The position numbers and the translations under genes were made by a program. This document shows, one piece after another, positions 5,769 through 60,734 of a DNA stretch of 64,000 nt; the first letter of the stretch is position 1, and the number at the start of each line of letters is the position of its first letter. The notes under the pieces were generated by a model that was not told where the DNA came from, did no database searches, and saw only the letters and a program-made list of their open reading frames with translations. The stretch covers positions 186,001 through 250,000 of the forward strand of contig JAUYSK010000019.1 of assembly GCA_030696345.1 (NCBI GenBank), in the 5' to 3' direction. The stretch is from Azonexus sp. (GTDB lineage: Bacteria > Pseudomonadota > Gammaproteobacteria > Burkholderiales > Rhodocyclaceae).

Positions 5769-6845
5769 ATGACCGTTAGCCACCGCCTTCTTGCCCTGCC
5801 CCTGTGTGCCCTGATCGGACTAGCCTCGGCAGCCGAGCCCATGTTGTTGCAAGCATCACAGGCCAAAGCGCTGGGCATTGAAACAGCGATCGTCAGCGAA
5901 TCGACTTCCAGTCGTGCCGGCACGCTGCCAGCCCGGGTTCTGGTCCCCAATGAACAGATGCGGGTCGTTGCAGCCCCGGTCGGCGGCATGGTTGAAATGC
6001 TGGCCGTCGCTCCCGGCGCCATGGTCAAACGTGGCCAGGTCGTCGCCCACCTGGCCAGCCCGCAGGCGCTGGAACTACAGCGCGATGCAATGCAATCCGG
6101 CAGCCAGGCCGCCCTGCTCCAGCAAAGCCTTAAGCGCGACGAGCAGTTGTTCGCCGAAGGCCTGATCGCCGAATCCCGTCTGCAGGCGACTCGCGCCACG
6201 GCAGCCCAGGCTGGCGCGCAAGCTAGTCAGCAACGGCAAAGCATGGCGCTGGCCGGCGTCGCACCGGGCAAAATGGGCGGCCCACTGGCGTTGACCGCAG
6301 CAATCGATGGTGTGGTGCTCGAACAGGGTGTACAACTCGGCCAACGGGTCGAAACCTCGGCGATGATCTACCGCATCGCCAAACTCTCGCCGCTCTGGCT
6401 GGAAATCCAGGCCCCGCTCGATTTCGCCGCCGGCCTCAAGGAAGGCGCCGTCGTCAAAGTAGCCAACAGCGAAGTCAGCGGCAAACTGATCGCCATCGGC
6501 CGCGCGGTCGATGCCGCCAGTCAGACAGTTTTGCTCCGTGCCGCGGTCAGTAAGGGGGCCGAAACACTGCACCCAGGCCAGGTGGTTGAAGTCGAAATTG
6601 CCGCACCACCTGGCAAGGGGCAACGACTTCCGGCCGCAGCAGTGGCTCGCAACGCTGGCAAGACGCTCGCCTTCGTGCAGACCGCGAGTAATGACAAGGG
6701 CCAGAGTTTTGAGGCCAGAGAGGTACGGATCATTTCTCAAGGCGGCGACAATGTCGTCGTCGAGGGCATCCAGCCGACCGAGCGCATTGCGGTCAAAGGC
6801 GTTTCTGGCCTGAAGGCGCTGCTCACCGGCGTTGGCAAAGAATAA
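5769..6845 (+). CDS. RND efflux periplasmic adaptor (CusB/CzcB type)
   Basis: About 358 residues from the ATG at 5769; a GTG at 5757 is an alternative start. A signal peptide (LLALPLCALIGLASAAEP) is followed by the membrane-fusion layout: a barrel-sandwich half (VGGMVEMLAVAPGAMVKRGQ), an alpha-hairpin (about 100-150), the second half (AIDGVVLEQGVQLGQRV), a beta barrel and a C-terminal domain. It links the inner-membrane pump to the outer-membrane channel. Its stop overlaps the start of the pump gene by one base. Codons 175-179 contain one copy of the dispersed 13-base word. Metal specificity cannot be told from the adaptor. Confidence 0.88.
   Translation: MTVSHRLLALPLCALIGLASAAEPMLLQASQAKALGIETAIVSESTSSRAGTLPARVLVPNEQMRVVAAPVGGMVEMLAVAPGAMVKRGQVVAHLASPQALELQRDAMQSGSQAALLQQSLKRDEQLFAEGLIAESRLQATRATAAQAGAQASQQRQSMALAGVAPGKMGGPLALTAAIDGVVLEQGVQLGQRVETSAMIYRIAKLSPLWLEIQAPLDFAAGLKEGAVVKVANSEVSGKLIAIGRAVDAASQTVLLRAAVSKGAETLHPGQVVEVEIAAPPGKGQRLPAAAVARNAGKTLAFVQTASNDKGQSFEAREVRIISQGGDNVVVEGIQPTERIAVKGVSGLKALLTGVGKE
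6290..6302 (+). repeat. GTYGACCGCAGCA copy 1 (T variant)
   Basis: Lies inside the adaptor gene, coding for L-T-A-A in its frame. Confidence 0.8.
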
Positions 6846-9800
6846 TGCTCGACAGACTGATTCGCTTTTCGCTGACCCAGCGCCTGTTGGTACTGGTGCT
6901 GACCGTCATGCTCATCGGCGCCGGGGTGCAGGCCTTCCTCGGCCTGCCGATTGATGCCTTCCCCGACGTTTCAACAACCCAGGTCAAGATCATCCTGAAA
7001 GCCCCGGGGATGACCCCGGAAGAAGTCGAAACGCGCCTCGCCGTGCCGGTCGAGCAGGAACTGCTCGGTATTCCGCATCAAAAGTTGTTGCGCTCGGTGT
7101 CCAAGTACGCACTGACCGACATCACCCTCGATTTCGAGGATGGCACCGATATTTACTGGGCCCGCCAGCAGGTCGGCGAACGCCTGGCCGCAGCGATGGG
7201 CAACCTGCCACCCGGGGCGACCGGCGGCATGGCCCCGATCACCACGCCGCTCGGCGAAATGTTCATGTTCACCATCGAGGGCGACATCTCGCTGGCTGAC
7301 AAGCGCGCCCTGCTCGACTGGGTGATCCGCCCGCAACTGCGCACCGTGCCCGGCGTTGCCGACGTAAACAGTCTGGGTGGCGAGGTGCGCACTTTCGAAG
7401 TCGTACCGCAACCGCAAAGCCTCGCGGCGCGTGGTCTGGCATTGAAGGACCTGCAGGCCGTACTCGAAGCCAATAACCGCAACGACGGCGCCGGTCGCCT
7501 GAACGACGGCGAGGAATCGCTGCTGGTACGGGCCGAAGGTGCGATTACTACGGTGGACGACGTAAAAGCCATTGTTTTGCAGGCCAAGGACGGCAATGTC
7601 GTGCGTATTGCCGATGTGGCCGAAGTCCGCCTCGGCGCCCTCACCCGCTACGGTGCGGTGACCAAGAGCGGACAGGGCGAGGCGGTGCAAGGCTTGGTCC
7701 TCGGCCTGCGCGGGGCCAACGCGCAAAAGGTGGTGGCCGGCGTCAAAGTTCGCCTGGCCGAGATCGCCCCGACCCTGCCACCCGGCGTCACCATCGATGC
7801 TTTCTACGACCGCAGCAATCTGGTCGGCCGCGCCATTGGCACCGTTTCAAAAGCCCTGCTCGAAGCCATCGTCCTCGTCGTGCTGCTGCTTCTTGCCTTC
7901 CTCGGCAACCTGCGTGCCGCGCTGGTCGTCGCCCTGATGTTGCCGCTATCGGCACTCGCCACCTTCATCCTGATGCGCATGTACGGCCTCTCGGCCAACC
8001 TGATGAGCCTTGGCGGCCTCGCCATCGCCATCGGCATGTTGGTCGATGCGGCGGTCGTCGTCGTCGAGAACGTCGAAAGCCAGCTCGCCGAGGCTCCGGA
8101 AAACCTGCCGACGCTGCACCTGATCTACCGCGCCTCCCGCGAAGTCGCCTCGCCGGTGACCTCCGGCATCATCATCATCATCATCGTCTTCCTGCCGCTG
8201 CTCACCTTGCAGGGACTGGAAGGCAAGATGTTCGGCCCGGTCGCGCTGACCATCGTCTTCGCCCTCGCCTCCTCGCTCGTGCTGTCGCTGACCGTGGTGC
8301 CGGTGCTGGCCTCCTACATGATCAAACGCGGCGTGCATCACGAACCGTGGCTGGTGAAGAAACTGGCCGCCATCTACGATCGCACTTTGACCATCGCCCT
8401 CGCCAACAGCCGCCACTTCATCATCGGCGCTCTGATTGCGCTGGCCGCAGCAACCGGCGCCTTCATGCTGCTCGGCAAGAGTTTCATGCCGACCATGGAC
8501 GAAGGCGACATGATCATGCAGCTCGAAAAGCTGCCGTCGATAAGTATCGATCAGACCATTGTCATCGACAGCGCCGTTCAGAAGGCGATCCTGGCGCAGG
8601 TGCCGGAAATAAAATCCATCGTCGCCCGCGCTGGCTCGGACGAACTTGGCCTCGACCCGATGGGTCTGAACCAGACCGATACCTTCATGGTGCTGCAGCC
8701 CCGCGACACCTGGCGCAACCCGGACCCGGCCTGGCTGGCCGACCAACTGCGCACGGTAATGGCCGACTTCCCCGGTATCGGCATCGCTTTCACCCAGCCG
8801 ATCGACATGCGCGTTTCCGAAATGCTGACCGGCGTGCGCGGCGATCTGGCAATCAAGATATTTGGCCCCGATCTCGCCACGCTGAACCGCCTGTCCAACG
8901 AGATTGTCGCGACAGTCAAGAAAGTAAATGGTGCAGAAGACACCTTCACATTGAAGAACGATGGTGTGCAATATCTGAAGGTTGCGGTCGACCGTCTGGC
9001 AGCCGGCAGATTCGGCCTCAATGTTGACGATATCCAGAACGATTTGAAGGCCCTGCTCGAAGGCCGCAATGTCGGCGTCGTCATCGAACAGGGACGACGC
9101 GTACCAGTCGTCCTGCGCGGCCCGAGCAGCCTGCTCAACTCACCCGCCGACTTCGAAGCCCTGCGCCTGACCCTGCCGAACGGCGGCAGCGTACCGCTGG
9201 CCAGCGTGGCAAAAATTGGCCGTATCGATGGCCCGGTCAAGGTCGACCGAGAGAACGCCCAGCGTTACGTCGTGGTCCAATCGAACGTTCGTGATCGCGA
9301 CCTGGTCGGCTTCGTCGAAGACGCCAAGGCTGCCGTTATCCGCGACGTCAAACTGCCGGCCGGCTACCGTCTGGCCTGGGGTGGCCAGTTCGAGAACCAG
9401 CAACGGGCCGCCGCCCGGCTGATGATCGTGGTTCCGGTTGCACTGGCGCTGATCTTCTTCCTGCTCTTCTCGACTTTCCGTTCGGTACGGCAAGCCCTGC
9501 TGGTTCTTTCCAACGTGCCGTTCGCGATGATCGGCGGCGTCTTCGGCCTGCTCATTGCCGGCGAATACCTCTCGGTGCCGGCCTCGGTCGGTTTCATCGC
9601 CCTGCTCGGTATCGCCGTGCTTAACGGCGTCGTCATGGTCACCTATTTCAACCAGTTGCTGGCCCGTGGCATGCCGGTCGTCGAAGTCGTGGTGGAAGGG
9701 GCCAAGCGCCGCCTGCGGCCGGTGCTGATGACTGCCAGCATCGCTGCCTTCGGCCTGGTACCGATGCTGTTCGCCACCGGACCAGGTTCCGAGGTACAGC

Positions 9801-9916
9801 GCCCGCTGGCCATCGTCGTCATCGGTGGCCTGGTCACCTCGACCGCACTGACGCTGGTCCTGCTCCCCATCCTGTTCCGTCGCTTCGGTGTCAAACCCAC
9901 CGTGTCGTTCAACTGA
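6845..9916 (+). CDS. Heavy-metal efflux RND transporter (CusA/CzcA family)
   Basis: A 1023-residue inner-membrane pump with the family's twelve-helix plan and two large periplasmic loops. The N terminus has the heavy-metal-group feature PIDAFPDVSTTQVKI. The fourth helix has GMLVDAAVVVVENVE (about 398-412), the proton-relay segment; it is closer to the CusA pattern (MVDAAIVMIEN) than to CzcA. An unusual run of six isoleucines is coded near 8170. It exports metal ions using the proton gradient together with the genes on either side. The substrate, perhaps Cu/Ag or a divalent ion, is inferred only from this motif. Confidence 0.9.
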   Translation: MLDRLIRFSLTQRLLVLVLTVMLIGAGVQAFLGLPIDAFPDVSTTQVKIILKAPGMTPEEVETRLAVPVEQELLGIPHQKLLRSVSKYALTDITLDFEDGTDIYWARQQVGERLAAAMGNLPPGATGGMAPITTPLGEMFMFTIEGDISLADKRALLDWVIRPQLRTVPGVADVNSLGGEVRTFEVVPQPQSLAARGLALKDLQAVLEANNRNDGAGRLNDGEESLLVRAEGAITTVDDVKAIVLQAKDGNVVRIADVAEVRLGALTRYGAVTKSGQGEAVQGLVLGLRGANAQKVVAGVKVRLAEIAPTLPPGVTIDAFYDRSNLVGRAIGTVSKALLEAIVLVVLLLLAFLGNLRAALVVALMLPLSALATFILMRMYGLSANLMSLGGLAIAIGMLVDAAVVVVENVESQLAEAPENLPTLHLIYRASREVASPVTSGIIIIIIVFLPLLTLQGLEGKMFGPVALTIVFALASSLVLSLTVVPVLASYMIKRGVHHEPWLVKKLAAIYDRTLTIALANSRHFIIGALIALAAATGAFMLLGKSFMPTMDEGDMIMQLEKLPSISIDQTIVIDSAVQKAILAQVPEIKSIVARAGSDELGLDPMGLNQTDTFMVLQPRDTWRNPDPAWLADQLRTVMADFPGIGIAFTQPIDMRVSEMLTGVRGDLAIKIFGPDLATLNRLSNEIVATVKKVNGAEDTFTLKNDGVQYLKVAVDRLAAGRFGLNVDDIQNDLKALLEGRNVGVVIEQGRRVPVVLRGPSSLLNSPADFEALRLTLPNGGSVPLASVAKIGRIDGPVKVDRENAQRYVVVQSNVRDRDLVGFVEDAKAAVIRDVKLPAGYRLAWGGQFENQQRAAARLMIVVPVALALIFFLLFSTFRSVRQALLVLSNVPFAMIGGVFGLLIAGEYLSVPASVGFIALLGIAVLNGVVMVTYFNQLLARGMPVVEVVVEGAKRRLRPVLMTASIAAFGLVPMLFATGPGSEVQRPLAIVVIGGLVTSTALTLVLLPILFRRFGVKPTVSFN

Positions 9917-9925
9917 GGCCCACCC

Positions 9926-11824: not shown

Positions 11825-12483
11825 TCCTGCGGTTCCTGTATCGAGGTGAGATAGGCCAGAATGTCCTTGATGTCCTGATCTTTCAGGCCATTGAGCAGGC
11901 CGACCATGCCCTCCTCGTCATGCGGGCGGTCGCCTTTCAGGTAGAGATCGGTCTGGCGCTTGAGGTAGCTGGTGTATTGCCCAACCAGCCGCGGGAACAT
12001 GCCGCGTCCCTTGCCATTCCTGGCATGGCAGGAGGCGCATTGTTTCTGGTAAATCTGGCCACCGTTCTCGAGATCACCTTCGCTACGCGGAATGATCATC
12101 ACCTTCTCGGCCATCAGCAAGCGCGTCAGTGCATCTTCCTTGCCGGTATAGGTTGGCATCTTGTTGGGCAATTCGATGCCGGCGATATAGGCCGAGATAT
12201 CCTTGATGTCCTCGTCCGACAGTTCGCGCTCCTGCGTGTAGGGGAACATCGGAATATTCATCCGTGTCCGCGAGCGGAAATTCCGCAACTGGCCTTCAAT
12301 GTATTTGACCGGCTGGCCGGCAATGCGCGGATATTCACCGCGCTTGCCACCTTCCCCATTTTCACCATGGCAGGCGGCACAGGTGCCGTTGATTTCCTTG
12401 CCTTTTTCGAGGTCGACCGCAGCAACCGGCCCACTGAACAACAAGGCGACAAACGCGAGGGGAAAGACGAGGCGAAACCGCAT
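11821..12483 (-). CDS. Diheme cytochrome c (cytochrome c4-like)
   Basis: The start at 12483 (MRFRLVFPLAFV) is preferred because it begins a signal peptide and has a GGAG upstream; this gives 220 residues. Two haem motifs are present, CAACHG (about 40) and CASCHA (about 145), each followed by a methionine-bearing segment typical of class I domains. It would carry electrons in the periplasm. It is divergent from regBA, and an Fnr/Dnr-type box lies about 60 bases before its start, so oxygen- or NO-responsive expression is likely. Confidence 0.88.
   Translation of the reverse strand: MRFRLVFPLAFVALLFSGPVAAVDLEKGKEINGTCAACHGENGEGGKRGEYPRIAGQPVKYIEGQLRNFRSRTRMNIPMFPYTQERELSDEDIKDISAYIAGIELPNKMPTYTGKEDALTRLLMAEKVMIIPRSEGDLENGGQIYQKQCASCHARNGKGRGMFPRLVGQYTSYLKRQTDLYLKGDRPHDEEGMVGLLNGLKDQDIKDILAYLTSIQEPQE
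12412..12424 (+). repeat. GTYGACCGCAGCA copy 2 (C variant)
   Basis: Lies in the signal-peptide end of the diheme cytochrome gene and is read there on the opposite strand as A-A-V-D. A run of five T precedes it by four bases. Confidence 0.8.
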
Positions 12484-12555: not shown

Positions 12556-12569
12556 GCATAATTCGCCCC

Positions 12570-13826
12570 ATGCCATTTATCTCCTGCAGCATCGACGGTA
12601 CCGAGCACCTGGGCACACTTCGCCGCCTGGTGGTCAGCCGCTGGATCGTGCTGGCGACGATGGCGCTGCTGGTCAGCATCGCCCCCGGCACGCTGGATAT
12701 TCGGCTGCCGCAACTGCCGATGCTGGGCATCATCGGCGTCGCGGTCTTGCTGAACGGCATCGCGCAATGGCAGATCGGGCGTGCCAAAACCGCCACCCCT
12801 TACGAGTTGTTCAGCCAGTTGCTGTTCGATGTCGCGACGCTGAGCGCCCTGGTTTTCTTCAGCGGCGGCGCGACCAACCCGCTGGTGTCTCTGCTACTGC
12901 CACCCGTTGCCATTGCCGCGCTGGCCTTGCCGGCCCGTTGCGTCATTGCCGTCGGCGGCAGCGCCATTACCGCCTATTCGCTGCTGATGTTCTTCTACGT
13001 GCCGCTACCGATGGAAGATGCCAGCCGCGCCACCCGCCTGCACCTGATCGGCATGTGGCTGACTTTTGTCGTCTCGGCCGTGATGATTGCCGCCTTCGTC
13101 GTCCGCATGACCCGGCTGATCCGCGAACGTGACGCCGAGCTGGCCGCTGCCCGCGAACAGGCGCTGCGTGACGAGCGGGTAATGGCGATGGGCACGCTGG
13201 CCGCCGGCGCCGCCCACGAACTCGGCACACCGCTCGCCACCATGGCACTGGTCGCCGGCGAACTGGCCAACGACCCGACCATCTCCGATGCCTCGCGCGA
13301 TGACATCGCGCTGCTGCGGCAGCAGATTGGCGTCTGCAAACAGATCATCACCGGCCTTTCCCGACGGGCCGGCGCCGAGCGACTGGAAAATACCCCGCTG
13401 GAGCCGGTCGACCGCTGGCTCGACCAGCTTCGCCAGCACTGGCACGCCGTCCGGCCACAATCCGGCAGCCGGCTGATCATCGGCAGCGATGGTTCGCCGC
13501 CAGAAATCGCCGCCGACCCCCGGCTGGAACAGGCGATGCTCAACCTGCTGAACAATGCCGCCAATGCCACAGCCCTGCCGCTGGAAATCCGCCTCAGCTG
13601 GTGCAGCCAGAATATCTGCATCGACATTCGCGATCACGGCCCCGGCTTTCCGGCCAACGTTCTGGAACAAGGCGGCCAGACCAGTTTTCCGCCGCACGAA
13701 CACGGTAACGGCGTTGGCTTGATGCTGACTCGCGCCGCCATCGAACAACTGGGCGGCAGCCTGACACTGCTCAACCCGGACGAAGGCGGCGCTCTCGCCC
13801 GCATCGAACTTCCACAGGCTGCCTGA
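12570..13826 (+). CDS. regB: RegB/PrrB-type redox sensor histidine kinase
   Basis: A 418-residue kinase with six hydrophobic segments in the first 180 residues. These include the quinone-sensing motif GGATNP (99-104) that marks the RegB family. The phosphorylation box AAGAAHELGTPL has His216. The ATPase part has NNAANA (N box), DHGPGFP and GNGVGLML. A redox-sensing cysteine just after the H box, as in Rhodobacter RegB, is not evident; a cysteine occurs later (IGVCKQI). RegB adjusts respiration and energy genes to redox state through RegA, encoded directly downstream with a one-base overlap. Confidence 0.92.
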   Translation: MPFISCSIDGTEHLGTLRRLVVSRWIVLATMALLVSIAPGTLDIRLPQLPMLGIIGVAVLLNGIAQWQIGRAKTATPYELFSQLLFDVATLSALVFFSGGATNPLVSLLLPPVAIAALALPARCVIAVGGSAITAYSLLMFFYVPLPMEDASRATRLHLIGMWLTFVVSAVMIAAFVVRMTRLIRERDAELAAAREQALRDERVMAMGTLAAGAAHELGTPLATMALVAGELANDPTISDASRDDIALLRQQIGVCKQIITGLSRRAGAERLENTPLEPVDRWLDQLRQHWHAVRPQSGSRLIIGSDGSPPEIAADPRLEQAMLNLLNNAANATALPLEIRLSWCSQNICIDIRDHGPGFPANVLEQGGQTSFPPHEHGNGVGLMLTRAAIEQLGGSLTLLNPDEGGALARIELPQAA

Positions 13827-14359: not shown

Positions 14360-14371
14360 TTGAAAAAAGGT

Positions 14372-14418
14372 CTTTTTAGCCGGTCGACCGCAGCAATCGA
14401 GTCAGTAACGGCTAAAAG
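14372..14418. repeat. Inverted repeat with embedded 13-base word between convergent genes
   Basis: TTTTAGCCG (14374-14382) pairs with CGGCTAAAA (14409-14417) around a 26-base loop that starts with the word. The right arm overlaps the stop codon of the antiporter gene. The T tract is on the outer 5' side, so this is not a normal terminator. Confidence 0.65.
14383..14395 (+). repeat. GTYGACCGCAGCA copy 3 (C variant)
   Basis: Intergenic, 24 bases past the regA stop, in the sequence TTTTAGCCGG-TCGACCGCAGCA. Confidence 0.85.
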
Positions 14419-18091: not shown

Positions 18092-18126
18092 GAGGCTGAC
18101 CGCAAGTGCTGCGGTCAACCGGCTAA
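18092..18126. repeat. Head-to-head pair of the 13-base word (inverted repeat)
   Basis: TGACCGCA (18097-18104) and TGCGGTCA (18110-18117) form a perfect eight-base stem with an AGTGC loop. The outer flanks GTTTTCCGG and CCGGCTAAAAC extend the symmetry. It lies between the convergent hemerythrin and PCuAC genes and resembles the paired uptake sequences seen at gene ends in Neisseria. Confidence 0.75.
18107..18119 (-). repeat. GTYGACCGCAGCA copy 4 (T variant, reverse)
   Basis: Intergenic; the full copy is on the - strand and a half copy on the + strand faces it. Its 5' flank on the - strand is TTTTAGCCG, the same as copy 3. Confidence 0.85.
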
Positions 18127-18137
18127 AACGGCAATTT

Positions 18138-18599
18138 TCAGTGCTTGTGTTGCATCGGCATGCCGGCCGCTACCGGACGAACCACCTTGGCATCGACCTT
18201 CTTGCTGCTGCCGTCATCGAAAGTCAACGTGATCGGCACGATATCGCCTTCCTTCATCGGCGCCTTGAGATCGATCAGCATGACATGCAGGCCACCCGGC
18301 TGCAAAACCGCTTCGCCCTTGGCCTTGACGTCGATGGCGGCCACCGGGCGCATCTTCATGACCCCGCCCTCATTCAAATGGGTGTGCAACTCCGTGACCT
18401 TCGAAGCCGGATTGTCGGCCTTGAGCACCTTGACGTCCTTGTCGCCATTATTCTTGATCACCATGAAGGCGCCAGTCGCCGGCGCATTCGGCGGCGCGAG
18501 GCGGACATAGGGTTCCTGCACCGAAATCTGGTCGGCCGCAGCGGCCAGAACACCGGTGGAAAAAATCAGGGCGGCAGCCAGTAGCGATAGTTTTTTCAT
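18138..18599 (-). CDS. PCuAC periplasmic copper chaperone
   Basis: About 153 residues from ATG 18599; an ATG at 18617 overlaps the sco stop and is also possible. A signal peptide (LSLLAAALIFSTGVLA) precedes the PCuAC fold. Copper ligands visible are HTH (72-74), MKM (81-83) and HVM (105-107), plus a Met/His-rich tail MPMQHKH. PCuAC binds Cu(I) and, with Sco, loads Cu-A centres. It lies last in a three-gene copper unit divergent from nosZ, so delivery to NosZ or to a haem-copper oxidase is likely. Confidence 0.93.
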   Translation of the reverse strand: MKKLSLLAAALIFSTGVLAAAADQISVQEPYVRLAPPNAPATGAFMVIKNNGDKDVKVLKADNPASKVTELHTHLNEGGVMKMRPVAAIDVKAKGEAVLQPGGLHVMLIDLKAPMKEGDIVPITLTFDDGSSKKVDAKVVRPVAAGMPMQHKH

Positions 18600-23586: not shown

Positions 23587-24561
23587 ATGGACAAACAAAA
23601 CAAAATCGTCGGTGGCTTGACCCTGATCTCGCTGATCTGCCTGATCGCCGCCTACTTTGCCCCGATCTGGTGGGTATCACTGACCGCCCCGAATTACCCG
23701 GCCGATGCCTTCCCGGACGGCATCCGCATCCATTTCCATTTTGATGGCGTCTATAACGGCTGCAAGGCAGCCGGCAAGGGGACGCGCATGGCCGGCGAAA
23801 TCATCCAGAAAGACCTTGCCCACGACGACGAGCGTTACAACCCGATCACCGACGCCAAGAAAGACCTCAACAAAGGGGCTGAAGGTCTGGATTGCGTTCA
23901 TGAGATGAACACCATCAACCACTATGTCGGCATGTTCCCGATTGCCACCGGCGCACCGGTTGAAAAGCCACTGGCCAAGTTCTTCTTCGGATTCTTTGCC
24001 GTCATGATTGCGGCCTTCGCGCTGCCCAGGAAAAAGCCCCGTTTATTGGTGTTGACCGCAGGATTCGCTGCCGTCGCCGTCTGGATGATTGTCGACCAGT
24101 TCATGCTCGGCCATCTCGAAAGCCACGTTCAGGCCTACATGCAGGAATCCGGCACCTTCTTCAAAGACATGGACCGCATCAACGTCTGGGGCAACAACGT
24201 GCGCAATATCTCGAAGATCGTTATCTTCGGCCTGATCGCCGTCATGGCCATCGTCATTGCCGGCACCGCCAAAATCAAGCCGTTCCAACTGCTGCTGGCG
24301 CTGGTGCCGGGCCTGCTCCCGGTCTTCTTCGTCATCACCTACGCCGGCTGGCTGTGGTTCTTCGGCCACAACATGCACCCGTGGGGCGCCTTCACCGTCA
24401 AGCCCTTCATGCCCACCGTCTTCGGCGAAGGCAAGGTCGCCCAGTTCTCGACCTTCTCCTACCCGTACTGGGGCTATGGTTTGCTGGTGACGATCTTTGT
24501 CTGCCTGATGCTGGCCCTGTTGATCCGCCGCAAGCAGTTGCGGGAAGGGCAGGCCGAGTAA
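23587..24561 (+). CDS. nosB: NosB-like membrane protein of clade II nos clusters
   Basis: A 324-residue membrane protein from ATG 23587. One N-terminal helix (GLTLISLICLIAAYFAPIW) is followed by a periplasmic loop of about 110 residues with GIRIHFHFDGVYNGC. About five more helices follow, the last before the basic tail RRKQLREGQ. Genes in this position between nosZ and nosD are the hallmark of clade II clusters; the protein's role is unproven but probably concerns electron supply or assembly. The call rests on gene order and topology. The stop is six bases from nosD. Confidence 0.8.
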   Translation: MDKQNKIVGGLTLISLICLIAAYFAPIWWVSLTAPNYPADAFPDGIRIHFHFDGVYNGCKAAGKGTRMAGEIIQKDLAHDDERYNPITDAKKDLNKGAEGLDCVHEMNTINHYVGMFPIATGAPVEKPLAKFFFGFFAVMIAAFALPRKKPRLLVLTAGFAAVAVWMIVDQFMLGHLESHVQAYMQESGTFFKDMDRINVWGNNVRNISKIVIFGLIAVMAIVIAGTAKIKPFQLLLALVPGLLPVFFVITYAGWLWFFGHNMHPWGAFTVKPFMPTVFGEGKVAQFSTFSYPYWGYGLLVTIFVCLMLALLIRRKQLREGQAE

Positions 24562-24567: not shown

Positions 24568-25932
24568 ATGCACATGCTGAAGAATCTGGGCAAGACGGGA
24601 CTGGCGGTAGCGCTCACCCTCGCCTGCTCAATCAGCAATTCGGAGCAGGAACGTGGCTCCAATGCCGACCTCAGCACCGCCCCGCGAGTCGGCATCGACC
24701 GGCCGAAGCCAACCTTCATGCTGCAGGATCGCGACAAGCGAGTCCATGGGCTGAAGCCCTTCCAGAAACTGGTCGACGAAGCCCCGGCCGGTTCCGTCCT
24801 GAAGCCGCCGCCCGGCATCTACGCCGGCCCGGTGGTGATCGACAAGCCCCTGACCATCGACGGTGGCGATCGGGTCACCATCGACTCCGGTGACCGGGGC
24901 ACAGTCATGGTGCTCAACGCCAGCAACTCCGTCTTGCGCGGCCTGCACCTGACCGGCTCCGGCGATTCGCACGATTCCGACGACTCCTGCCTCGACGTGC
25001 GCGGCCACCACAACGTCATCGAAAACATCAAGGCCGACAACTGCCTGTTCGGCCTCGACTTCAAGCAGTCGGACCACAACCTGATCCGTGGCAACGAAAT
25101 CCGCTCCAAGGATGTCGAACTCGGCGTGCGCGGCGACGGCCTGCGCCTCTGGTACAGCAACGACAACATCATCGAGAAGAACCGGATCATCGATTCGCGC
25201 GACATGGTGGCCTGGTATGCACACCGCAACGTATTCCGCGACAACCTCGGCCGGCGAAGCCGCTACTCGATCCATTTCATGTTCGCCAACGACAACGTCG
25301 TCGAACACAACGAGTTTTACGACAACGCGGTCGGCGTCTATTTCATGTACACCGAAGGCGGCGTCGTCCGCGACAACGTGATTTCCCATGCCACCGGCGC
25401 TACCGGCATGGGCATCGGCTTCAAGGAAGCTTCCGGCACCGTCATCGAGAACAATGAAATCATCTACTGCGGCATCGGCATCGGCTCCGACCTCTCACCC
25501 TTCCAGCCGGAAAGCTCGATCGAGATACGCAGCAACCGCTTTGCCTACAACGGCATCGGCATCCTGTTCAACAGCGAAACCGGCGGCAACAAACTGCGAG
25601 ACAACAGCTTTGAAGGCAACCTGACCCAGGTCAGCTACGGTGGACGCGGCGATAACAACAATAACGAGCGGAATTTCTGGGAAGGCAATTTCTGGGATGA
25701 CTACCAGGGCTTTGACCGCAACAAGGACGGCTTCGGCGACCAGAAGCATGAGCTTTACTCCTACGCCGACCAGATCTGGATCGAAATGCCGGTCGCCCGC
25801 TTCTTCCGCAGTTCACCGGTCATGGAACTGCTCGATTTCCTTGAACGCCTGGCCCCCTTCTCCAAACCCGACCTGATCCTGCGTGACGACAAACCACGCT
25901 TCATCAAACCGGAAAGAACGGCACGATCATGA
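24568..25932 (+). CDS. nosD: NosD periplasmic copper-site maturation protein
   Basis: A 454-residue protein with an N-terminal hydrophobic export segment (TGLAVALTLACS) and many right-handed beta-helix (CASH) repeats. These show as a regular N-x-I/V-x-x-N pattern, for example NVIENIKADNCLFG, NLIRGNEI, NIIEKNRI and NVVEHNEF. NosD works with the NosFY ABC transporter to deliver sulfur for the Cu-Z site of NosZ. The end DQIWIEMPVARFFRSSPVMELLDFLERLAPF is typical. It overlaps nosG by four bases. Confidence 0.95.
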   Translation: MHMLKNLGKTGLAVALTLACSISNSEQERGSNADLSTAPRVGIDRPKPTFMLQDRDKRVHGLKPFQKLVDEAPAGSVLKPPPGIYAGPVVIDKPLTIDGGDRVTIDSGDRGTVMVLNASNSVLRGLHLTGSGDSHDSDDSCLDVRGHHNVIENIKADNCLFGLDFKQSDHNLIRGNEIRSKDVELGVRGDGLRLWYSNDNIIEKNRIIDSRDMVAWYAHRNVFRDNLGRRSRYSIHFMFANDNVVEHNEFYDNAVGVYFMYTEGGVVRDNVISHATGATGMGIGFKEASGTVIENNEIIYCGIGIGSDLSPFQPESSIEIRSNRFAYNGIGILFNSETGGNKLRDNSFEGNLTQVSYGGRGDNNNNERNFWEGNFWDDYQGFDRNKDGFGDQKHELYSYADQIWIEMPVARFFRSSPVMELLDFLERLAPFSKPDLILRDDKPRFIKPERTARS

Positions 25933-27763: not shown

Positions 27764-27782
27764 TTTTTGGTCAAAACAGGTG

Positions 27783-27795
27783 GTCGACCGCAGCA
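27783..27795 (+). repeat. GTYGACCGCAGCA copy 5 (C variant)
   Basis: Intergenic, 19 bases after the nosH stop, with a TTTTT run upstream. Confidence 0.85.
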
Positions 27796-33136: not shown

Positions 33137-33299
33137 GGTGGTTTCCCTCCGGTGAACTTGAGCCATGAAACCATGCAGCCATGACGAATTCAGTGCGCTG
33201 CCACACACTGGGCGGCCCCTGATCAACGACGCCAATCCCGGCCTGGCACCAGACTGGCGAACATCGGCGCCAGCCCGAGTTTTTTGATCCAGATTCAAG

Positions 33300-33312
33300 G
33301 TCGACCGCAGCA
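33300..33312 (+). repeat. GTYGACCGCAGCA copy 6 (C variant)
   Basis: Intergenic, 20 bases before the nosF start; a TTTTTT run lies 15 bases upstream. Confidence 0.85.
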
Positions 33313-35508: not shown

Positions 35509-35999
35509 ATAAACTTCTCCCAGCCCTGGTTTTTGCCCTTTTTTCGACGTTGACCGCAGCAGATGAAATGCCTTCCTCGGCAGCGCTGTTCGCCGCGACG
35601 CTGAACGATCTCGACGACAAGCCGATAGCGCTGGAGCGTTACAAAGGCAAGCCGCTCGTCGTCAATTTCTGGGCCCGCTGGTGCGGCCCCTGCCGCGCCG
35701 AAATCCCCGAGCTGATCAAATTCCGCGCCGCCCACAAAGGCAAGATTGAGGTGCTCGGCATCGGCATCGAAGACAAGGCCGAACCGGCGAAGGAATTCGC
35801 CAAAGCCTACGAGATGGATTACCCGGTTTTCGTCGCCAAGGAAAAAGGCATCCCGCTGATGCAGGCACTGGCCAATACCAAAGGTGGCCTGCCTTACACC
35901 CTCTTCATCGACCGCAATGGCCAGGTAATTCAGAAGAAGCTGGGCCTGATCAAGAAGGCCGACCTTGATGCGGCTGCCGTTTTGCTACTGAAAAATTGA
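35505..35999 (+). CDS. TlpA/ResA-like periplasmic thioredoxin
   Basis: A 164-residue protein with a TTG start overlapping the nosY stop. A signal peptide (LLPALVFALFSTLTAA) precedes a thioredoxin fold with WARWCGPCR (Cys60, Cys63) and the cis-proline region GGLPYTLFID. TlpA-like proteins reduce Cu-A cysteines or apocytochromes before metal or haem insertion, a role that fits the NosZ Cu-A site. It closes the nosFLY unit. No better ATG start is available. Confidence 0.88.
   Translation: MNKLLPALVFALFSTLTAADEMPSSAALFAATLNDLDDKPIALERYKGKPLVVNFWARWCGPCRAEIPELIKFRAAHKGKIEVLGIGIEDKAEPAKEFAKAYEMDYPVFVAKEKGIPLMQALANTKGGLPYTLFIDRNGQVIQKKLGLIKKADLDAAAVLLLKN
35549..35561 (+). repeat. GTYGACCGCAGCA copy 7 (T variant)
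   Basis: Lies in the signal-peptide end of the TlpA-like gene, coding for L-T-A-A; a TTTTTT run precedes it. Confidence 0.85.
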
Positions 36000-43383: not shown

Positions 43384-45180
43384 TCAGCCAAACACTTCAT
43401 CGCCCAGACCAGCCAATGCGGCATCTCCGGCTTTTACCGTTTCGGCGAATGACAAGGCTTGCGGCAGTATCTGATCGGCGTAGAAATGCGCCGTGGCAAT
43501 CTTGGCGCGATAGAAGGCCAAGTCGCCTTCGCCCTTGTCAAGATAGCCGGCAGCCGCCAGCGCTGCCTTGCCCATGAACCAGCCGCCGCAAACGGTCACA
43601 GCCAGATGCAGATAGGGCACTGCTGCGGTCAACACCCCGGAAAGGCCATTTTTCACATTGGCCGCCAGCCATTCGGTGGCGCCTGTCCAGGTTTGCAGAG
43701 CGGTGCCGAGGCGTTGGCCGATGGCCTGCAGTTCCGGCTTGCCGGAAGCGAGCAGCGCCTTGGCTGTGACATGCACTTCGCCGAACACGATTTTGGCCGT
43801 CGCCCCCTGATCGCGCATCAGCTTGCGGAACACCAGGTCGTTGGCCTGGATGCCGGTCGTGCCTTCGTAGATGGTGGTAATCCGTGAGTCGCGCCAGTGC
43901 TGGGCGGCGCCGGTTTCCTCGATGAAGCCCATGCCGCCGTAGATCTGGATGCCGAGCGAAGTCACCTCGATACCCATTTCCGTACCGCCACCCTTGACGA
44001 TGGGAATCATGAATTCAGCCAGATAGAGCGCCATTTTTCGGGCCTCTGCATCGGGCAGGCTATACGCCCGGTCGAGCAGTCCCGAGGTGTAGTAGGTCAC
44101 GGCACGACCGGCTTCAACACGGGATTTCATCAACATCAGCATGCGGCGGATATCCGGGTGCTTGTCGATGGTGACCAGCGCTTCGCCGGTCAGCGCATCG
44201 CGCCCCTGCTTGCGTTCGCGGGCAAAGGCCAGCGCCTGCTGGTAGGCCCGCTCACCCAGCGCAATGCCTTGCAGACCAACGCCGAGGCGAGCTTCGTTCA
44301 TCATGATGAACATGTATTCAAGGCCGCGATTTGCCTGGCCAAGCAGGTAGCCGACCGCCCCGCCATTGTCACCATAGGCCATGACGCAGGTCGGGCTGGC
44401 GTGAATGCCCAGCTTGTGTTCGAGCGAAACGCACCAGGCATCGTTCCGGGCGCCGAGCGAGCCGTCGGCATTGACCAGGAATTTCGGCACGAGGAACAGC
44501 GAAATACCCTTCACCCCGGCCGGCGCATCTGGCAGGCGGGCGAGCACGAGGTGAACGATGTTCTCGGTCATGTCGTGGTCGCCGTAAGTGATGAAGATCT
44601 TCTGGCCGAAGACGCGGTAGCTGCCATCGGCCTGCGGTTCGGCGCGACTACGAATGAGCGCCAGATCGGAGCCGGCCTGTGGCTCGGTCAAGTTCATCGT
44701 ACCGGTCCATTCGCCGGTAACCATCTTTTCCAGATAGATGGCTTTCAGTTCGTCGCTGGCACAGGTCAGCAACGCTTCGACGGCGCCGGTGGTGAGCAAG
44801 GGGCCAAGCGAAAACGACAGGTTGGCCGAGCAGACCATTTCCTTGACGGCAATGGCCAGCGTATCGGGCAGGCCCTGCCCACCAAACTCCGCTGGCGAGG
44901 CGATGCCGTTCCAGCCAGCGTCACGAAAAGCCTTGTAGGCCTCCTTCCAGCCGGTTGGCGTGGTGACACCGTTTGCAGTCAGCTTGCAGCCTTCCTTGTC
45001 ACCGACCCGGTTCAGCGGGGCAAGAACTTCGCCGGTGAATTTCGCTGCTTCTTCGAGCACGGCATCGGCCAGGTCGGGGGTTGCTTCCTCGTAGCCGGCA
45101 ATTCGGCTCAGTTCCTTGAAACCGGCGAGTTCATCCATGACGAACCGCATGTCTTTAACCGGCGCTCTGTAGTCGCTCAT
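43384..45180 (-). CDS. Acyl-CoA dehydrogenase with C-terminal extension
   Basis: A 598-residue flavoprotein of the long acyl-CoA dehydrogenase subgroup: N-terminal helical domain (about 35-160), the middle beta domain with MNLTEPQAGSDLALIRSRA (about 161-179), the C-terminal helical domain (QIYGGMGFIEETGAAQHWRDSRITTIYEG in parts, about 428-455) and an extra C-terminal domain (about 465-598). It introduces the trans-2 double bond in acyl-CoA. AAGGAGACAG precedes the start. A gap of 126 bases with a REP-like element separates it from the nitronate monooxygenase gene. No palindrome like that before tetR is seen upstream. Confidence 0.93.
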   Translation of the reverse strand: MSDYRAPVKDMRFVMDELAGFKELSRIAGYEEATPDLADAVLEEAAKFTGEVLAPLNRVGDKEGCKLTANGVTTPTGWKEAYKAFRDAGWNGIASPAEFGGQGLPDTLAIAVKEMVCSANLSFSLGPLLTTGAVEALLTCASDELKAIYLEKMVTGEWTGTMNLTEPQAGSDLALIRSRAEPQADGSYRVFGQKIFITYGDHDMTENIVHLVLARLPDAPAGVKGISLFLVPKFLVNADGSLGARNDAWCVSLEHKLGIHASPTCVMAYGDNGGAVGYLLGQANRGLEYMFIMMNEARLGVGLQGIALGERAYQQALAFARERKQGRDALTGEALVTIDKHPDIRRMLMLMKSRVEAGRAVTYYTSGLLDRAYSLPDAEARKMALYLAEFMIPIVKGGGTEMGIEVTSLGIQIYGGMGFIEETGAAQHWRDSRITTIYEGTTGIQANDLVFRKLMRDQGATAKIVFGEVHVTAKALLASGKPELQAIGQRLGTALQTWTGATEWLAANVKNGLSGVLTAAVPYLHLAVTVCGGWFMGKAALAAAGYLDKGEGDLAFYRAKIATAHFYADQILPQALSFAETVKAGDAALAGLGDEVFG

Positions 45181-45306: not shown

Positions 45307-46254
45307 TCAGTACGAACTACTGCACAGCGCCGTCTTTGCGGCGCGGTATTCCTGGCGCATTCGGGCGATCAGTTCGCCGGCCGGAAGCACGTCGTCGATA
45401 TTGCCGACGCCCTGCCCTGCTCCCCAGATGTCCTTCCAGGCCTTGGCGTCGCCGCCGCTGCCGAAGCTCATCGCGGTCTTGTCCTTGACTGGCAGGTTGT
45501 CTGGATCAAGGCCGGCGGCAACGATGCTCTTCTTCAGATAGTTGCCATGCACGCCGGTGAAATAGGGCGTGTAAACGACGTCGACCGCAGCAGCGTCCAC
45601 AATGGCCTGTTTGTAGGCTTCGACGGCATTGGCTTCCTGCGTTGCAATGAAGCGCGTACCAATGTAGGCGAAATCCGCCCCCATGGCCTGTGCCGCCAGG
45701 ATGGCACTGCCGGTGGCGATCGCCCCGGAGAGCGCAATCGGGCCGTTGTAGAACTTGCGGATTTCGCCGACCAGCGCAAATGGACTGAGCATACCGGCGT
45801 GCCCACCGGCCCCGGCGCAAACCAGGATCAGACCATCGACGCCAGCCTCCAGCGCCTTTTCGGCATGACGCACACTGATTACGTCATGGAAGACCTGGCC
45901 GCCATAGGCATGCACCTTCGGCACGATGGCTGTCGGCGCCGACAGGCTGGTGATGATCAGCGGCACCTGATGCTTCACGCAGAGCGCCATATCATCGGCC
46001 AGCCGCTCGTTGGATGGGTGGATGATCTGATTGACCGCAAACGGTGCAGCCTTCGGGTCGGCAGCCAGTTCGGCCTTGATCCGGGTCAGCCACTCGTCAA
46101 GCGCCTCCTTCGGCCGGGCATTCAGGGCCGGGAAGGAACCGATGACGCCGCTCTTGCACTGGGCAATCACCAGATCCGGATTGGAGACGATGAACATCGG
46201 CGCGCAGATAACCGGCAGCGTCAGATTCCTGTCCAGGGATGCAGGAATCGGCAT
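45307..46254 (-). CDS. Nitronate monooxygenase family flavoprotein
   Basis: A 315-residue TIM-barrel FMN enzyme (2-nitropropane dioxygenase family). Visible are the start LPVICAPMFIVSNPDLV, the catalytic-His motif GAGGHAG (about 150-156), the phosphate-binding GAIATGSAILAAQAMGAD (about 177-194) and GTRFIAT. It would oxidise alkyl nitronates, though relatives near fad genes may instead act on unsaturated acyl-CoA. Its start overlaps the fadD stop by one base, so it is in one operon with fadD. Confidence 0.88.
   Translation of the reverse strand: MPIPASLDRNLTLPVICAPMFIVSNPDLVIAQCKSGVIGSFPALNARPKEALDEWLTRIKAELAADPKAAPFAVNQIIHPSNERLADDMALCVKHQVPLIITSLSAPTAIVPKVHAYGGQVFHDVISVRHAEKALEAGVDGLILVCAGAGGHAGMLSPFALVGEIRKFYNGPIALSGAIATGSAILAAQAMGADFAYIGTRFIATQEANAVEAYKQAIVDAAAVDVVYTPYFTGVHGNYLKKSIVAAGLDPDNLPVKDKTAMSFGSGGDAKAWKDIWGAGQGVGNIDDVLPAGELIARMRQEYRAAKTALCSSSY
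45580..45592 (+). repeat. GTYGACCGCAGCA copy 8 (C variant)
   Basis: Inside the nitronate monooxygenase gene, read on the opposite strand as A-A-V-D. Confidence 0.8.
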
Positions 46255-49022: not shown

Positions 49023-49049
49023 GATTTCAATTTTGGGCGTTTTTTTCGG

Positions 49050-49062
49050 GTTGACCGCAGCA
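49050..49062 (+). repeat. GTYGACCGCAGCA copy 9 (T variant)
   Basis: Intergenic, 28 bases upstream of the DUF4442 start, with a run of seven T just before it. Confidence 0.85.
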
Positions 49063-52990: not shown

Positions 52991-53003
52991 TGCTGCGGTC
53001 AAC
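52991..53003 (-). repeat. GTYGACCGCAGCA copy 10 (T variant, reverse)
   Basis: Intergenic, between the fadN operator and the fadL terminator; one of only two exact copies on the - strand. Confidence 0.85.
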
Positions 53004-53023
53004 TGTTTTTTTAGGGCATTTTC

Positions 53024-54474: not shown

Positions 54475-56373
54475 TTACTGCTTGTTGCGAAAATTGATGG
54501 GGCCACCGGTGAAGGGGGCGAAACCGGTACCGAAAATCACGCCGGCGTCGGCGAGGTCGGCATCTGCCACGACACCATCGGCAACCAGCTGTTCGACACG
54601 ATCGATCAACGAAGTAACCAAACGCTCCGCCAGCCCGGCCGGCACGGAACCGGCCGCACCTTTACCAACTCTGCCCTCTGTCCAGCCGTAGAAACCCTGA
54701 CCGGATTTCTTGCCAAGCTGCCCCTGCTCGACCCGCTGCAGCAAGCAGCGCGGCGCTTCCGCTCCGCCAGCCAGTTGCTTGCCGGCAGCCAGCGCAATAT
54801 CCAGCCCGACAGTATCGACCAGCTCAATCGGCCCCATCGGCATGCCGAAAGCCAGCATGGCCTCATCAACCGTTTCGGGTGAAATTCCCTCGTCGACCGC
54901 ACGCATCGCCGCCAGCATGTAGGGCGCCAGCACGGCATTGACCAGGAAGCCCGGTTCGCTCCTGACCGGCAGCGGCAATTTGTCGATCTGCCGAACGAAG
55001 CCGCAGGCCGCCTGAACCACCGCGTGATCAGCACCTTCGGCCTCAACTACTTCAACCAGCGGCATCATCGCCACCGGGTTGAAGAAGTGGATGCCAACCA
55101 GACGTTCGGGCTGCTTCAACACCGTGCGCAGTTCTTCGATACGCAAACTTGATGTGTTAGTCGCGAGGATCGCCCCGGGTTTCATCCTCGGCTCCAGTAA
55201 CCGGAACAGCGCATGCTTGGCATCAAGGTTCTCGAAAATAGCTTCGATGACAACATCGGCGTGCGCCACGCCATCGCCATTCACATCCGGAATCAAGCGG
55301 TCGAAGGCTGCACGCGCCAGAAGCGGGTCGCGCAGGCGGCGGGAAAACAACTTGTGAGCTCGTTGCAATGCCGGACTGATGCGCTCGATACCTTGATCCT
55401 GAAGCGTCACCGTCATGCCGCGCAAGGCGCACCAGGCAGCAATATCACCGCCCATGACGCCAGCGCCGATGACATGTACCCGCCCAGCCTTGAAAGCCGA
55501 TTCCTTGCCGAAATTTTTCAGGCGTTCCTGCAGAAAGAAAACCCGGACCAGATTGCGCGCCGTTGACGAGTTGATGATGCTGTCGATCAAGGCTGGTGCT
55601 GCCAGCGCATTGCCCTGATGTTTCGCCCAGATGTCGATAATGGCGTACGGCGCCGGGTAATGTTCCGGCCGCGCCTTGCGGGCGAGCTGTTTGCGGGCAC
55701 CATTGGCAACGAGACTTTTCAGCGGCCCATTCAGCAAACGCTGCAACAACGCCAACGGACGGCGCGGCTGACCAGAAAGCACCAGTTGGCGCGCCGCAGC
55801 ATCCATCACGCGAGGGGGCACGCACTCGTCAGCCAGCCCCATGCGTTTGGCGCGTTTGGCATCAATCGTCTTGCCGGTCAGCATCATGTCCAGTGCAGCC
55901 GATGGCCCGACCCGCTGCGGCAAACGCAGCATGCCTCCCCAGCCCGGGAAGATGCCGAGCATTACTTCTGGCAAGCCCATTTTGGTAGCCGGTTCATCAA
56001 CCGCCAGCAGGTAGCGGCAAGCCAGCGCCAGTTCAAGTCCGCCGCCCAGACAATGGCCACGGATTATTGCCAATGTCGGGTAGTTGACCGCAGCAAGGCG
56101 GTTGAACAGCTTCCAGCCGCGCTCAACCAGCGCCTTGGCCTTGTCAGCACTATCGAGTTGGGTGAATTCCTGGATGTCGGCACCGGCAATGAAACCAGCC
56201 TCCTTTCCGGACCGGATGATCAAGCCTTTGGGCGGGTAGACATCCAGTTGATCCAGAACTTCGTTGAATTCGGCCAACACTTCAGCCGACAGCGAATTGG
56301 TGGACTCGCCGTTTTTGTCGAGAGTCGCGACGACCAAGCCGCTATCTTCACGGAGCAATTGCCAATGTTTCAT
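54475..56373 (-). CDS. fadJ: Enoyl-CoA hydratase/3-hydroxyacyl-CoA dehydrogenase, hydratase first (FadJ-like)
   Basis: A 632-residue bifunctional enzyme with the classic order. The crotonase domain comes first (FIAGADIQEF, about 60; RGHCLGGGLELALACRY, about 101-117; GIFPGWGGMLRLP). The dehydrogenase follows (VIGAGVMGGDIAAWCA, about 302-317; ATNTSSLRIEEL; GIHFFNPV). It is shorter than E. coli FadJ (714), because the C-terminal part is trimmed (ends GTGFAPFTGGPINFRN). It overlaps fadI by four bases and belongs to the tetR-fadE-fadI-fadJ operon. Confidence 0.92.
   Translation of the reverse strand: MKHWQLLREDSGLVVATLDKNGESTNSLSAEVLAEFNEVLDQLDVYPPKGLIIRSGKEAGFIAGADIQEFTQLDSADKAKALVERGWKLFNRLAAVNYPTLAIIRGHCLGGGLELALACRYLLAVDEPATKMGLPEVMLGIFPGWGGMLRLPQRVGPSAALDMMLTGKTIDAKRAKRMGLADECVPPRVMDAAARQLVLSGQPRRPLALLQRLLNGPLKSLVANGARKQLARKARPEHYPAPYAIIDIWAKHQGNALAAPALIDSIINSSTARNLVRVFFLQERLKNFGKESAFKAGRVHVIGAGVMGGDIAAWCALRGMTVTLQDQGIERISPALQRAHKLFSRRLRDPLLARAAFDRLIPDVNGDGVAHADVVIEAIFENLDAKHALFRLLEPRMKPGAILATNTSSLRIEELRTVLKQPERLVGIHFFNPVAMMPLVEVVEAEGADHAVVQAACGFVRQIDKLPLPVRSEPGFLVNAVLAPYMLAAMRAVDEGISPETVDEAMLAFGMPMGPIELVDTVGLDIALAAGKQLAGGAEAPRCLLQRVEQGQLGKKSGQGFYGWTEGRVGKGAAGSVPAGLAERLVTSLIDRVEQLVADGVVADADLADAGVIFGTGFAPFTGGPINFRNKQ
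56093..56105 (+). repeat. GTYGACCGCAGCA copy 11 (T variant)
   Basis: Inside the fadJ-like gene, read on the opposite strand as A-A-V-N. Confidence 0.8.
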
Positions 56374-60007: not shown

Positions 60008-60044
60008 GCTGTTGTCTCCTTTTATATTTTTTGGTTTTGGTCGT

Positions 60045-60734
60045 TTATTTGCTGTCGACCGCAGCAGTCTCCGAAAACTGTGGCAAAGGCGCGCGCAAGC
60101 CACCTAGCAGGAAGGACATCAAACGTGGCACCAGCCGATCAAGTCGATCCACCGAATCGTCGTCCTCAATCTGCCAGTCGGTCACCAGCCGCAGCGCATC
60201 GGTACCGGCAATGGCGTAGGAAGTCGCGCCCAGCATGAAATGAAAGCGCCAGACGATCTCGGCCTTTGGCACTTCGGGCAGCGCCTTGAACAAGGCTTCC
60301 TTGTAGCGATCCATCACGACCTTGTATTCGTGGGCGAGAAAAGCCCGAATGAACTCGGATGGTTCGGTCAGGGTGCGGCCGAGCAAACGGAGAAATGTCA
60401 TGCCGCCGCGATTCTCGTCACCAGCCATGCGCAGCAGGGTGCCGAAGAAGCCATCGACAATCTGCGAGGGCTTCAGAGCCTTGCCGGCAACTTCACGTTC
60501 CATCTCGTCGAGCACCCGCATGCGCTCTTCGTTAAGCCAGTCCAGGCGGCGCCGAAACACCTCCTGCATCAGCGATTCCTTGGAGCCGAAGTGGTAATTC
60601 ACCGCCGCCAGATTGACGGCCGCTTCGCCAGTAATCTGGCGCATTGAGGTGCCGTCGTAGCCGTGGGCCATGAACAGGTTTTCGGCGGCATCGAGAATGC
60701 GCTCGCGGGTATCGACGGTTCTGACTTCAGCCAT
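60045..60734 (-). CDS. TetR-family regulator of fatty-acid degradation (PsrA/FadR-like)
   Basis: A 229-residue regulator. The helix-turn-helix is N-terminal (RERILDAAENLFMAHGYDGTSMRQI, then AAVNLAAVNYHFGSKESLM, about 10-55). The C-terminal ligand domain contains a TetR_C-type segment (about 100-200). It shares an operon with fadE, fadI and fadJ. A palindrome with a CATAC-GTTC-GTTTG core lies 16 bases before its start and related sites precede fadL and the fadN-like gene. By family analogy it represses these genes and is released by long-chain acyl-CoA; this is inferred. Confidence 0.9.
   Translation of the reverse strand: MAEVRTVDTRERILDAAENLFMAHGYDGTSMRQITGEAAVNLAAVNYHFGSKESLMQEVFRRRLDWLNEERMRVLDEMEREVAGKALKPSQIVDGFFGTLLRMAGDENRGGMTFLRLLGRTLTEPSEFIRAFLAHEYKVVMDRYKEALFKALPEVPKAEIVWRFHFMLGATSYAIAGTDALRLVTDWQIEDDDSVDRLDRLVPRLMSFLLGGLRAPLPQFSETAAVDSK
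60054..60066 (+). repeat. GTYGACCGCAGCA copy 12 (C variant)
   Basis: Overlaps the last codons of the tetR gene, read on the opposite strand as A-A-V-D. Confidence 0.85.

Follow-up and report, generated by a model that had tools for sequence, protein, structure and literature searches.

A putative DNA uptake signal with two phased A/T tracts in the genus Azonexus/Dechloromonas

Why does a word of 13 bases, GTYGACCGCAGCA, recur again and again in a 64,000-nucleotide stretch (the window) of the genome of Azonexus sp. (G000; 3.96 Mb, 28 contigs)? The analysis presented here indicates that the word is very probably the genome-specific core, TGCTGCGGTCRAC on the opposite strand, of an uptake signal for natural transformation that would allow the recognition of self DNA, much as the tags of Haemophilus do. 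A first-pass annotation of the window had reported twelve exact copies. The repetition is real, but the correct number is 13, as a copy at 43621 on the minus strand had been overlooked, and the copy placed at 56093 begins at 56083. Two near matches reported at 7806 and 58407 do exist, at 7805 (two mismatches) and at 58406 (one mismatch). Allowing up to two mismatches, the window contains 29 sites including the 13 exact ones, compared with 5.75 ± 2.23 in 100 dinucleotide shuffles. Throughout the genome we counted 357 exact words, 187 forward and 170 reverse, and none on either strand for the reversed control word. An order-2 Markov model predicts 0.12 exact words in 464 kb of G000 in which 51 were found, and in an unbiased count of all 10-mers (464 kb and 864 kb of G000) pieces of the word and of its variant were the most over-represented words. 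The annotated dispersal far above chance is confirmed by these counts.

For the description of the flanks the first T of TGCTGCGGTCRAC was counted as position 0. In this direction, a pair of A/T tracts with a spacing of 10 bp follows the word. In the flanks of 49 copies from G000, aligned with no condition imposed, the A/T content is 67-80% at bases 17-21 and 90-100% at bases 28-31. Among 90 copies, runs of four consecutive A/T bases peak at offset 18 (52%) and at offset 28 (81%). The far tract is in register at offset 28 in 73 of these 90 words compared with a background of 3.3%, and in 12 of the 13 exact words of the window. From offset 30 onward the fraction of four A/T bases does not exceed 8%, and conservation stops about 34 bases from the start of the word. 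In 32 copies from G029, a complete genome of the same genus, the far tract is again present and the near tract is weaker, here too without selection for the tract. The sharp boundaries ascribed to the word in the first-pass annotation therefore do not exist; its T run 4-20 bases upstream corresponds to the phased A/T tracts read on the strand of the word, and the 13-mer, there treated as the unit, turned out to be one dialect core of a longer and broader motif.

The core itself is strict in G000, with 51 exact copies compared with 38 for all single-base variants together (464 kb). At the core positions C5 and G6 no single-base variant was found in G000 or G029, and at G7 and T8 there was one each per genome. 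Part of the copies contain the palindromic form GTCGAC; because of this form one stretch can hold a site in both directions. A fixed core that is partly palindromic would also suit the recognition site of a DNA modification or restriction system, over-represented for epigenetic marking. We consider this very improbable, since the motif as a whole is asymmetric and includes two distant A/T tracts, and since the non-palindromic GTTGAC is the commoner form in G000 (69% of 49 copies).

To count complete sites we used the core and tract pattern RCGGTSRAC-N15-WWWW, with the same pattern read backward as a control. G000 contains 766 such sites (control 19). The 76 genomes of the genus, which was identified as Azonexus/Dechloromonas through comEC loci in Azonexus and Dechloromonas records, split cleanly into 40 motif-rich genomes with 537-1682 sites and 36 motif-poor genomes with 7-149 sites; the controls lie between 2 and 25 in all 76. 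Forward and reverse counts in the motif-rich genomes differ by about 13% at most. In a sample of the family (249 genomes, 68 genera) the 241 genomes from the 67 other genera hold 0-24 sites, and in a sample of the order (399 genomes, 51 families) the 393 genomes outside the genus hold no more than 32. The comEC DNA of six genomes is identical letter for letter to named records. By this identity G040 corresponds to Dechloromonas sp. H13 (850 sites) and G059 to Dechloromonas denitrificans ATCC BAA-841 (1006 sites). The comEC neighbourhoods of about 22 kb contain 10 sites in H13, 7 in ATCC BAA-841, 5 in Dech2017 and 10 in UBA6271. Four more comEC loci of the genus (22 kb or shorter) contain 2-4 sites, some contain none (L143, L145), and locus L181, from a Rhodocyclaceae bacterium with an unchecked genus assignment, contains six. 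Loci named for other genera contain 0-1 sites. Eight motif-poor genomes hold 81-149 sites, above their own controls, as relics would; the sites of one motif-poor genome, G046 (98, control 13), are read in this way. In the motif-poor genome G045 (106 sites) the sites among the matches listed cluster on few contigs (C10, C14, C25), which are perhaps imported or slower-decaying segments.

The motif differs between species. We compared sequence logos from seven motif-rich genomes, five of which (G038, G101, G030, G050 and G018) were represented by 80 kb each. The logo sites were chosen by the core and tract pattern, and over-represented 10-mers were counted independently of it. Common to the motif-rich genomes is CGGTCRAC with the far tract, and the bases upstream vary: TGCTG in G000, TGCTG, TGTCG and TGCCG in G029, CAG in G038, TG in G050 and little in G018. 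G000 also uses TGCTGCGGTGRAC, and GTYGACCGCAGCA is not the main dialect of G029. In G101 and G030 an A before CGGT (ACGGT) is commoner than GCGGT. The motif-poor genomes G046 and G017 (200 kb each) contain no comparable 10-mer, with top scores of 12 and 14 compared with 108 in G000 and 120 in G029, and an alternative dialect in these motif-poor genomes was rejected for this reason. Two other repeats were encountered in these counts. Stretches L220-L223 of G101 carry a different, AAAGAAAGTAGCCAAA-like repeat, whose 10-mers occur in six copies in 80 kb compared with at most 0.1 expected, and the palindrome TCTCCGGAGA has a count of 10 over both strands of G000 (464 kb; each place counted twice) compared with 0.5 expected.

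Individual sites could be followed between species. When the sites of named species were projected onto G000, 26 of 31 aligned without gaps. The site inside comEC (G000:C3 17092-17123) has an intact core in nine of 14 aligned named loci, all nine motif-bearing. Most of the loci with the intact site have their own upstream bases and varying spacers, and the alignment of L164 has a 2-base shift. The same site is altered in the other five loci (L145, L192, L152, L143, L141), none of which holds a core and tract site. Eleven loci were aligned at a second site of the comEC region (15538); five of them, each motif-rich, have it intact, and in six it is altered. From the gap-free alignments and the comEC sites we conclude that substitution is the main way in which sites are gained and lost. 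If the sites were copies of a small mobile element or an insertion-type repeat, they would likewise be numerous and nearly identical, and could accumulate in intergenic DNA, where G000 shows an excess (see below). We regard this explanation as extremely improbable, as conservation ends so close to the word, the projected sites align mostly without gaps and most copies lie within genes.

A tree of ComEC from 43 genomes of the genus (25 motif-rich, 18 motif-poor) and five outgroups requires nine changes between the two states by parsimony, six of them forced by well-supported branches. The tree represents a single gene and only genomes with intact ComEC, and the early branch G011 is long. Since the first branches on both sides are motif-rich, an ancestral system with repeated loss is favoured; the tree suggests that the motif was ancestral to the genus and was then lost repeatedly.

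The position of the sites on the chromosome bears on further alternatives. Chi, read by RecBCD in repair, and the FtsK orienting polar sequences (KOPS), read in segregation, are strand-polar with replication. Such polar elements, which the first-pass annotation had offered as a candidate role, share with the motif a short, frequent and asymmetric chromosomal word, and the 10:3 strand split in the window could be seen in this light. This bias is only local, as the genome-wide 187:170 demonstrates. In samples from seven genomes, with the GC skew of each stretch as a proxy for replication direction, 211 core and tract sites ran along the G-rich strand and 202 against it. Replication polarity was not seen, contrary to the proposed role, and Chi and KOPS are not known to have a counterpart of the A/T tracts; a polar element is thus extremely unlikely. 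The sites show no preference for the gene strand either (45:41 for coding sites in G000, 41:33 in G029). In G000 the A-A-V-N/D frame is used by 41 of the 45 sites on the gene strand.

Most sites lie in coding DNA, 86 of 120 in G000 and 74 of 91 in G029. With a crude gene caller, 34 of the 120 sites in G000 (864 kb) are intergenic compared with 18.0 expected. Sites were present in 58 of 61 sampled 20-kb pieces of G000 and G029, with a variance to mean ratio of 0.5-2.3 for the counts per 20 kb. Their density rises with the GC content of the stretch (rho 0.52 for 41 stretches, 0.60 for 20 stretches) and is lower in stretches of low GC. Stretch L013 (51% GC), a glycosyltransferase cluster, is free of sites, as is L043 (52% GC), in which an integrase, two transposases and a VapE-type protein were among the five proteins examined. 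Close pairs of sites in the samples of G000 and G029 were only three, all overlapping palindromes. Core and tract pairs overlap once in the sample of G000 and twice in that of G029; in G000 the 20-bp palindrome TGCTGCGGTCGACCGCAGCA at C4:34652-34671 consists of two exact words overlapping back to back. No terminator-like inverted pairs occurred in these samples, and inverted-pair terminators were rejected.

Another rival is the binding site of a cytoplasmic protein, such as a nucleoid-associated protein, a chromosome-organising protein or a global regulator, which would read the core together with the bent A/T tracts and act all over the chromosome. A core with phased A/T tracts would be a plausible target of a DNA-bending protein, and the presence of sites in nearly all sampled pieces as well as the intergenic excess in G000 are in line with it. 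It accounts less well for the predominance of coding sites, for the lack of the trait in 36 of the 76 genus members and in every other genus of the samples, for the dialects that shift between species and for the absence of sites from the two acquired-looking clusters. In addition, the consensus in G000 is strict, unlike that of regulator sites, an argument that PMC1626085 makes for the uptake signal sequence (USS) of Pasteurellaceae. We regard this rival as unlikely; a site for a nucleoid or mobile-element protein, as the first-pass annotation had also proposed, explains less.

We prefer an uptake signal because of the strict asymmetric core, the pair of A/T segments placed on one side with a spacing of one turn and the roughly thousand copies, and because these point in either direction, lie within as well as outside genes, and occur in species dialects and in a restricted lineage. 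A DNA-uptake sequence had been among the earlier candidate roles, and anatomy, distribution, dialects and evolution support it; uptake itself we infer. On free double-stranded DNA, the core would be bound by a receptor that is exposed at the cell surface as part of the competence type IV pilus. Lying on the same face of the helix one turn apart, the two A/T tracts would help to bend or open the duplex for passage through the outer membrane, and one strand would enter via ComEC and recombine. DNA of the own kind would be taken up preferentially. As each uptake would favour the better-matching alleles, copies would build up wherever they are tolerated, in both orientations, through point mutation and biased replacement, and they would decay after loss of the receptor or of competence.

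Several genes expected for such a system have matches in G000. We found matches to ComEC, DprA and an HHH_3 domain (ComEA-type), 19 N-methyl pilin matches, 18 of them above the cut-off, and a type IV minor pilin cluster. Several results nevertheless weigh against an uptake signal. First, competence genes do not follow the motif, a point that also speaks for the cytoplasmic protein. A ComEC frame of at least 750 amino acids is present in 21 of 25 motif-rich and in 13 of 19 motif-poor genomes (p = 0.29; the 44 genomes that are at least 90% complete, from a set of 60). DprA was found in 75 of the 76 genomes of the genus, and the only one without a match at the threshold is the motif-rich G018 (1332 sites); HHH_3 was found in all 76, rich and poor alike. 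As none of the three separates the two groups, loss of competence genes was rejected as the cause of motif loss; motif-poor genomes may have lost the receptor or its specificity only, or competence by another route. ComEC is damaged, split or absent in the motif-rich genomes G008, G002, G018, G054 and G020; such defects of competence genes could reflect recent losses or assembly breaks. Among congeners comEC is split, truncated or interrupted in G002, G043, G017, G034, G006 and G008, perhaps by repeated loss of competence; a weak N-terminal fragment sits on the same contig as the rest of the gene in G002 and G043, at a distance of about 33 kb.

Second, no pilin group separated six motif-rich from five motif-poor genomes, in a comparison of two pilin clusters per genome (one for G000) that comprised only part of the pilins of each genome. 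A PilE-type minor pilin is present in all 11 of these genomes, rich and poor alike. We also searched for the FimT-like minor pilin of G000 in 59 genomes (G000 included) and compared pilin N-termini in 10 genomes. Minor pilin groups occurred in rich and poor genomes alike and no receptor candidate was singled out, a result that, with pilins compared in part, excludes no candidate.

Third, the sites themselves are not uniform in their behaviour. In G029 (400 kb) 32 exact words face 34 one-off variants, 14 of which are one dialect form. The intergenic excess of G000 is not found in G029 (17 of 91 sites compared with 24.2 expected, with a crude caller that covered 73%), and the earlier statement that half of the copies are intergenic fails genome-wide in both genomes. 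The motif-bearing loci L164 and L181 lack an intact 15538 site, and the site-free stretch L044 (54% GC) carries flagellar and chemotaxis genes that are not obviously foreign or mobile (five proteins examined). Finally, our literature searches, which did not extend to most subscription papers or to any bioRxiv preprints, found no paper on competence, uptake or motif binding in Azonexus or Dechloromonas.

The sites of the window are compiled below. The ten genes at or near them (5757-60103) are ordinary; they code for an efflux fusion protein, a cytochrome c, a response regulator, a hybrid kinase, an ABC transporter, a redoxin, a nitronate monooxygenase-like protein, acyl-CoA dehydrogenases and a beta-oxidation enzyme.

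Table 1. USS-like sites in the 64,000-nucleotide window. Each site spans 32 bp; strands give the orientation of the core.
Site	Position	Word	Strand	Remark
USS-like site TGCTGCGGTCAAC + far A/T tract	6271..6302	6290-6302	-	exact word, core and tract
USS-like site TGCTGCGGTCGAC, far A/T tract out of register	12393..12424	12412-12424	-	exact word only
USS-like site TGCTGCGGTCGAC + A/T tracts	14364..14395	14383-14395	-	
USS-like site TGCTGCGGTCAAC + A/T tracts	18107..18138	18107-18119 on -	+	
USS-like site TGCTGCGGTCGAC + A/T tracts	27764..27795	27783-27795	-	
USS-like site TGCTGCGGTCGAC + far A/T tract	33281..33312	33300-33312	-	
USS-like site TGCTGCGGTCAAC + A/T tracts	35530..35561	35549-35561	-	
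USS-like site TGCTGCGGTCAAC + far A/T tract, within acyl-CoA dehydrogenase-like gene	43621..43652		+	overlooked in the first-pass annotation
USS-like site TGCTGCGGTCGAC + far A/T tract, within nitronate monooxygenase-like gene	45561..45592	45580-45592	-	
USS-like site TGCTGCGGTCAAC + A/T tracts	49031..49062	49050-49062	-	
USS-like site TGCTGCGGTCAAC + A/T tracts	52991..53022	52991-53003 on -	+	
USS-like site TGCTGCGGTCAAC + far A/T tract, within enoyl-CoA hydratase / 3-hydroxyacyl-CoA dehydrogenase-like gene	56064..56095	56083-56095	-	
USS-like site TGCTGCGGTCGAC + A/T tracts	60035..60066	60054-60066	-	
One-off USS-like site TCCTGCGGTCAAC + A/T tracts	24032..24063		-	core and tract only
Weak site AGCGGTCGAC + far tract, may be chance	13388..13419		-	core and tract only
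Weak site TGCGGTCGAC + far tract, may be chance	343..374		+	core and tract only
Weak site CTACGGTGGAC + far tract, may be chance	25633..25664		+	core and tract only

How does the motif relate to known uptake systems? A 2025 paper (PMC12616744) calls Neisseriaceae and Pasteurellaceae the only families known for self-DNA recognition in uptake. The USS of Pasteurellaceae is described in PMC12616744 and PMC1626085 as an inner core GCGG with a pair of A/T-rich regions downstream, which are proposed to assist in melting or kinking the DNA; the latter places segments 2 and 3 of the Hin-type USS 12 apart, centre to centre. The Azonexus motif resembles the USS (Hin-type AAGTGCGGT, Apl-type ACAAGCGGT) in the inner GCGG(T) of the G000 dialect, in the pair of A/T segments that lie on the 3' side with a spacing of roughly one helical turn, in its hundreds to more than a thousand copies in both orientations, in its dialects, in its origin by substitution and in its decay after loss. 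It differs in that it belongs to a betaproteobacterial genus and its core continues with CRAC, and in that TGCTGCGGT has a T where Pasteurellaceae share an A, four bases before GCGGT. Moreover, the tracts of Azonexus are more distant from GCGGT and are spaced by 10 bases, GCGG varies within the genus, with mostly ACGGT in G101 and G030, and G000 does not have the full 9-bp Hin/Apl or ancestral USS core ANNNGCGGT, as given in the consensus of PMC1626085. The motif thus appears to work like a USS, and because of the missing ANNNGCGGT core, the ACGGT dialects and the greater distance of the tracts from the core we do not class it as the Pasteurellaceae USS.

With the DNA uptake sequence (DUS) of Neisseriaceae, which is read by the minor pilin ComP, the motif shares the character of an abundant, dialect-forming and lineage-restricted self-marker. 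The DUS, as PMC12616744 and PMC1626085 describe it, is an uninterrupted sequence of at most about 13 bases with CTG in its interior, and no further motifs flank it. The Azonexus motif has distant A/T tracts downstream and the core CGGTCRAC instead, and its assignment to the DUS was rejected.

Neisseriaceae are closer relatives of Azonexus and Dechloromonas than Pasteurellaceae are. We consider it fairly likely that Azonexus/Dechloromonas possesses a third system of self-DNA uptake, which would be ancestral to the genus and absent from the other genera of the order sampled, and which would have converged on the geometry of the gammaproteobacterial Pasteurellaceae, GCGGT plus two phased A/T tracts, and not on that of Neisseriaceae. 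Within the literature covered we found no report of uptake sequences in Rhodocyclales, Dechloromonas or Azonexus, in agreement with the first-pass annotation, which knew of no such word in Rhodocyclales.

If true, a third lineage besides Pasteurellaceae and Neisseriaceae, and one of free-living bacteria, would mean that specificity for self DNA in uptake is not bound to a life in association with hosts. It would also allow the functions of the A/T tracts and of the GCGGT core to be tested independently, and would point to a mechanical constraint, or to an old transfer of the receptor, behind the design of the USS. With at least six and by parsimony nine changes, a single genus would provide natural experiments on the origin and loss of uptake specificity and on its receptor, and motif-rich members with strain names, Dechloromonas denitrificans ATCC BAA-841 and Dechloromonas sp. 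H13, exist.

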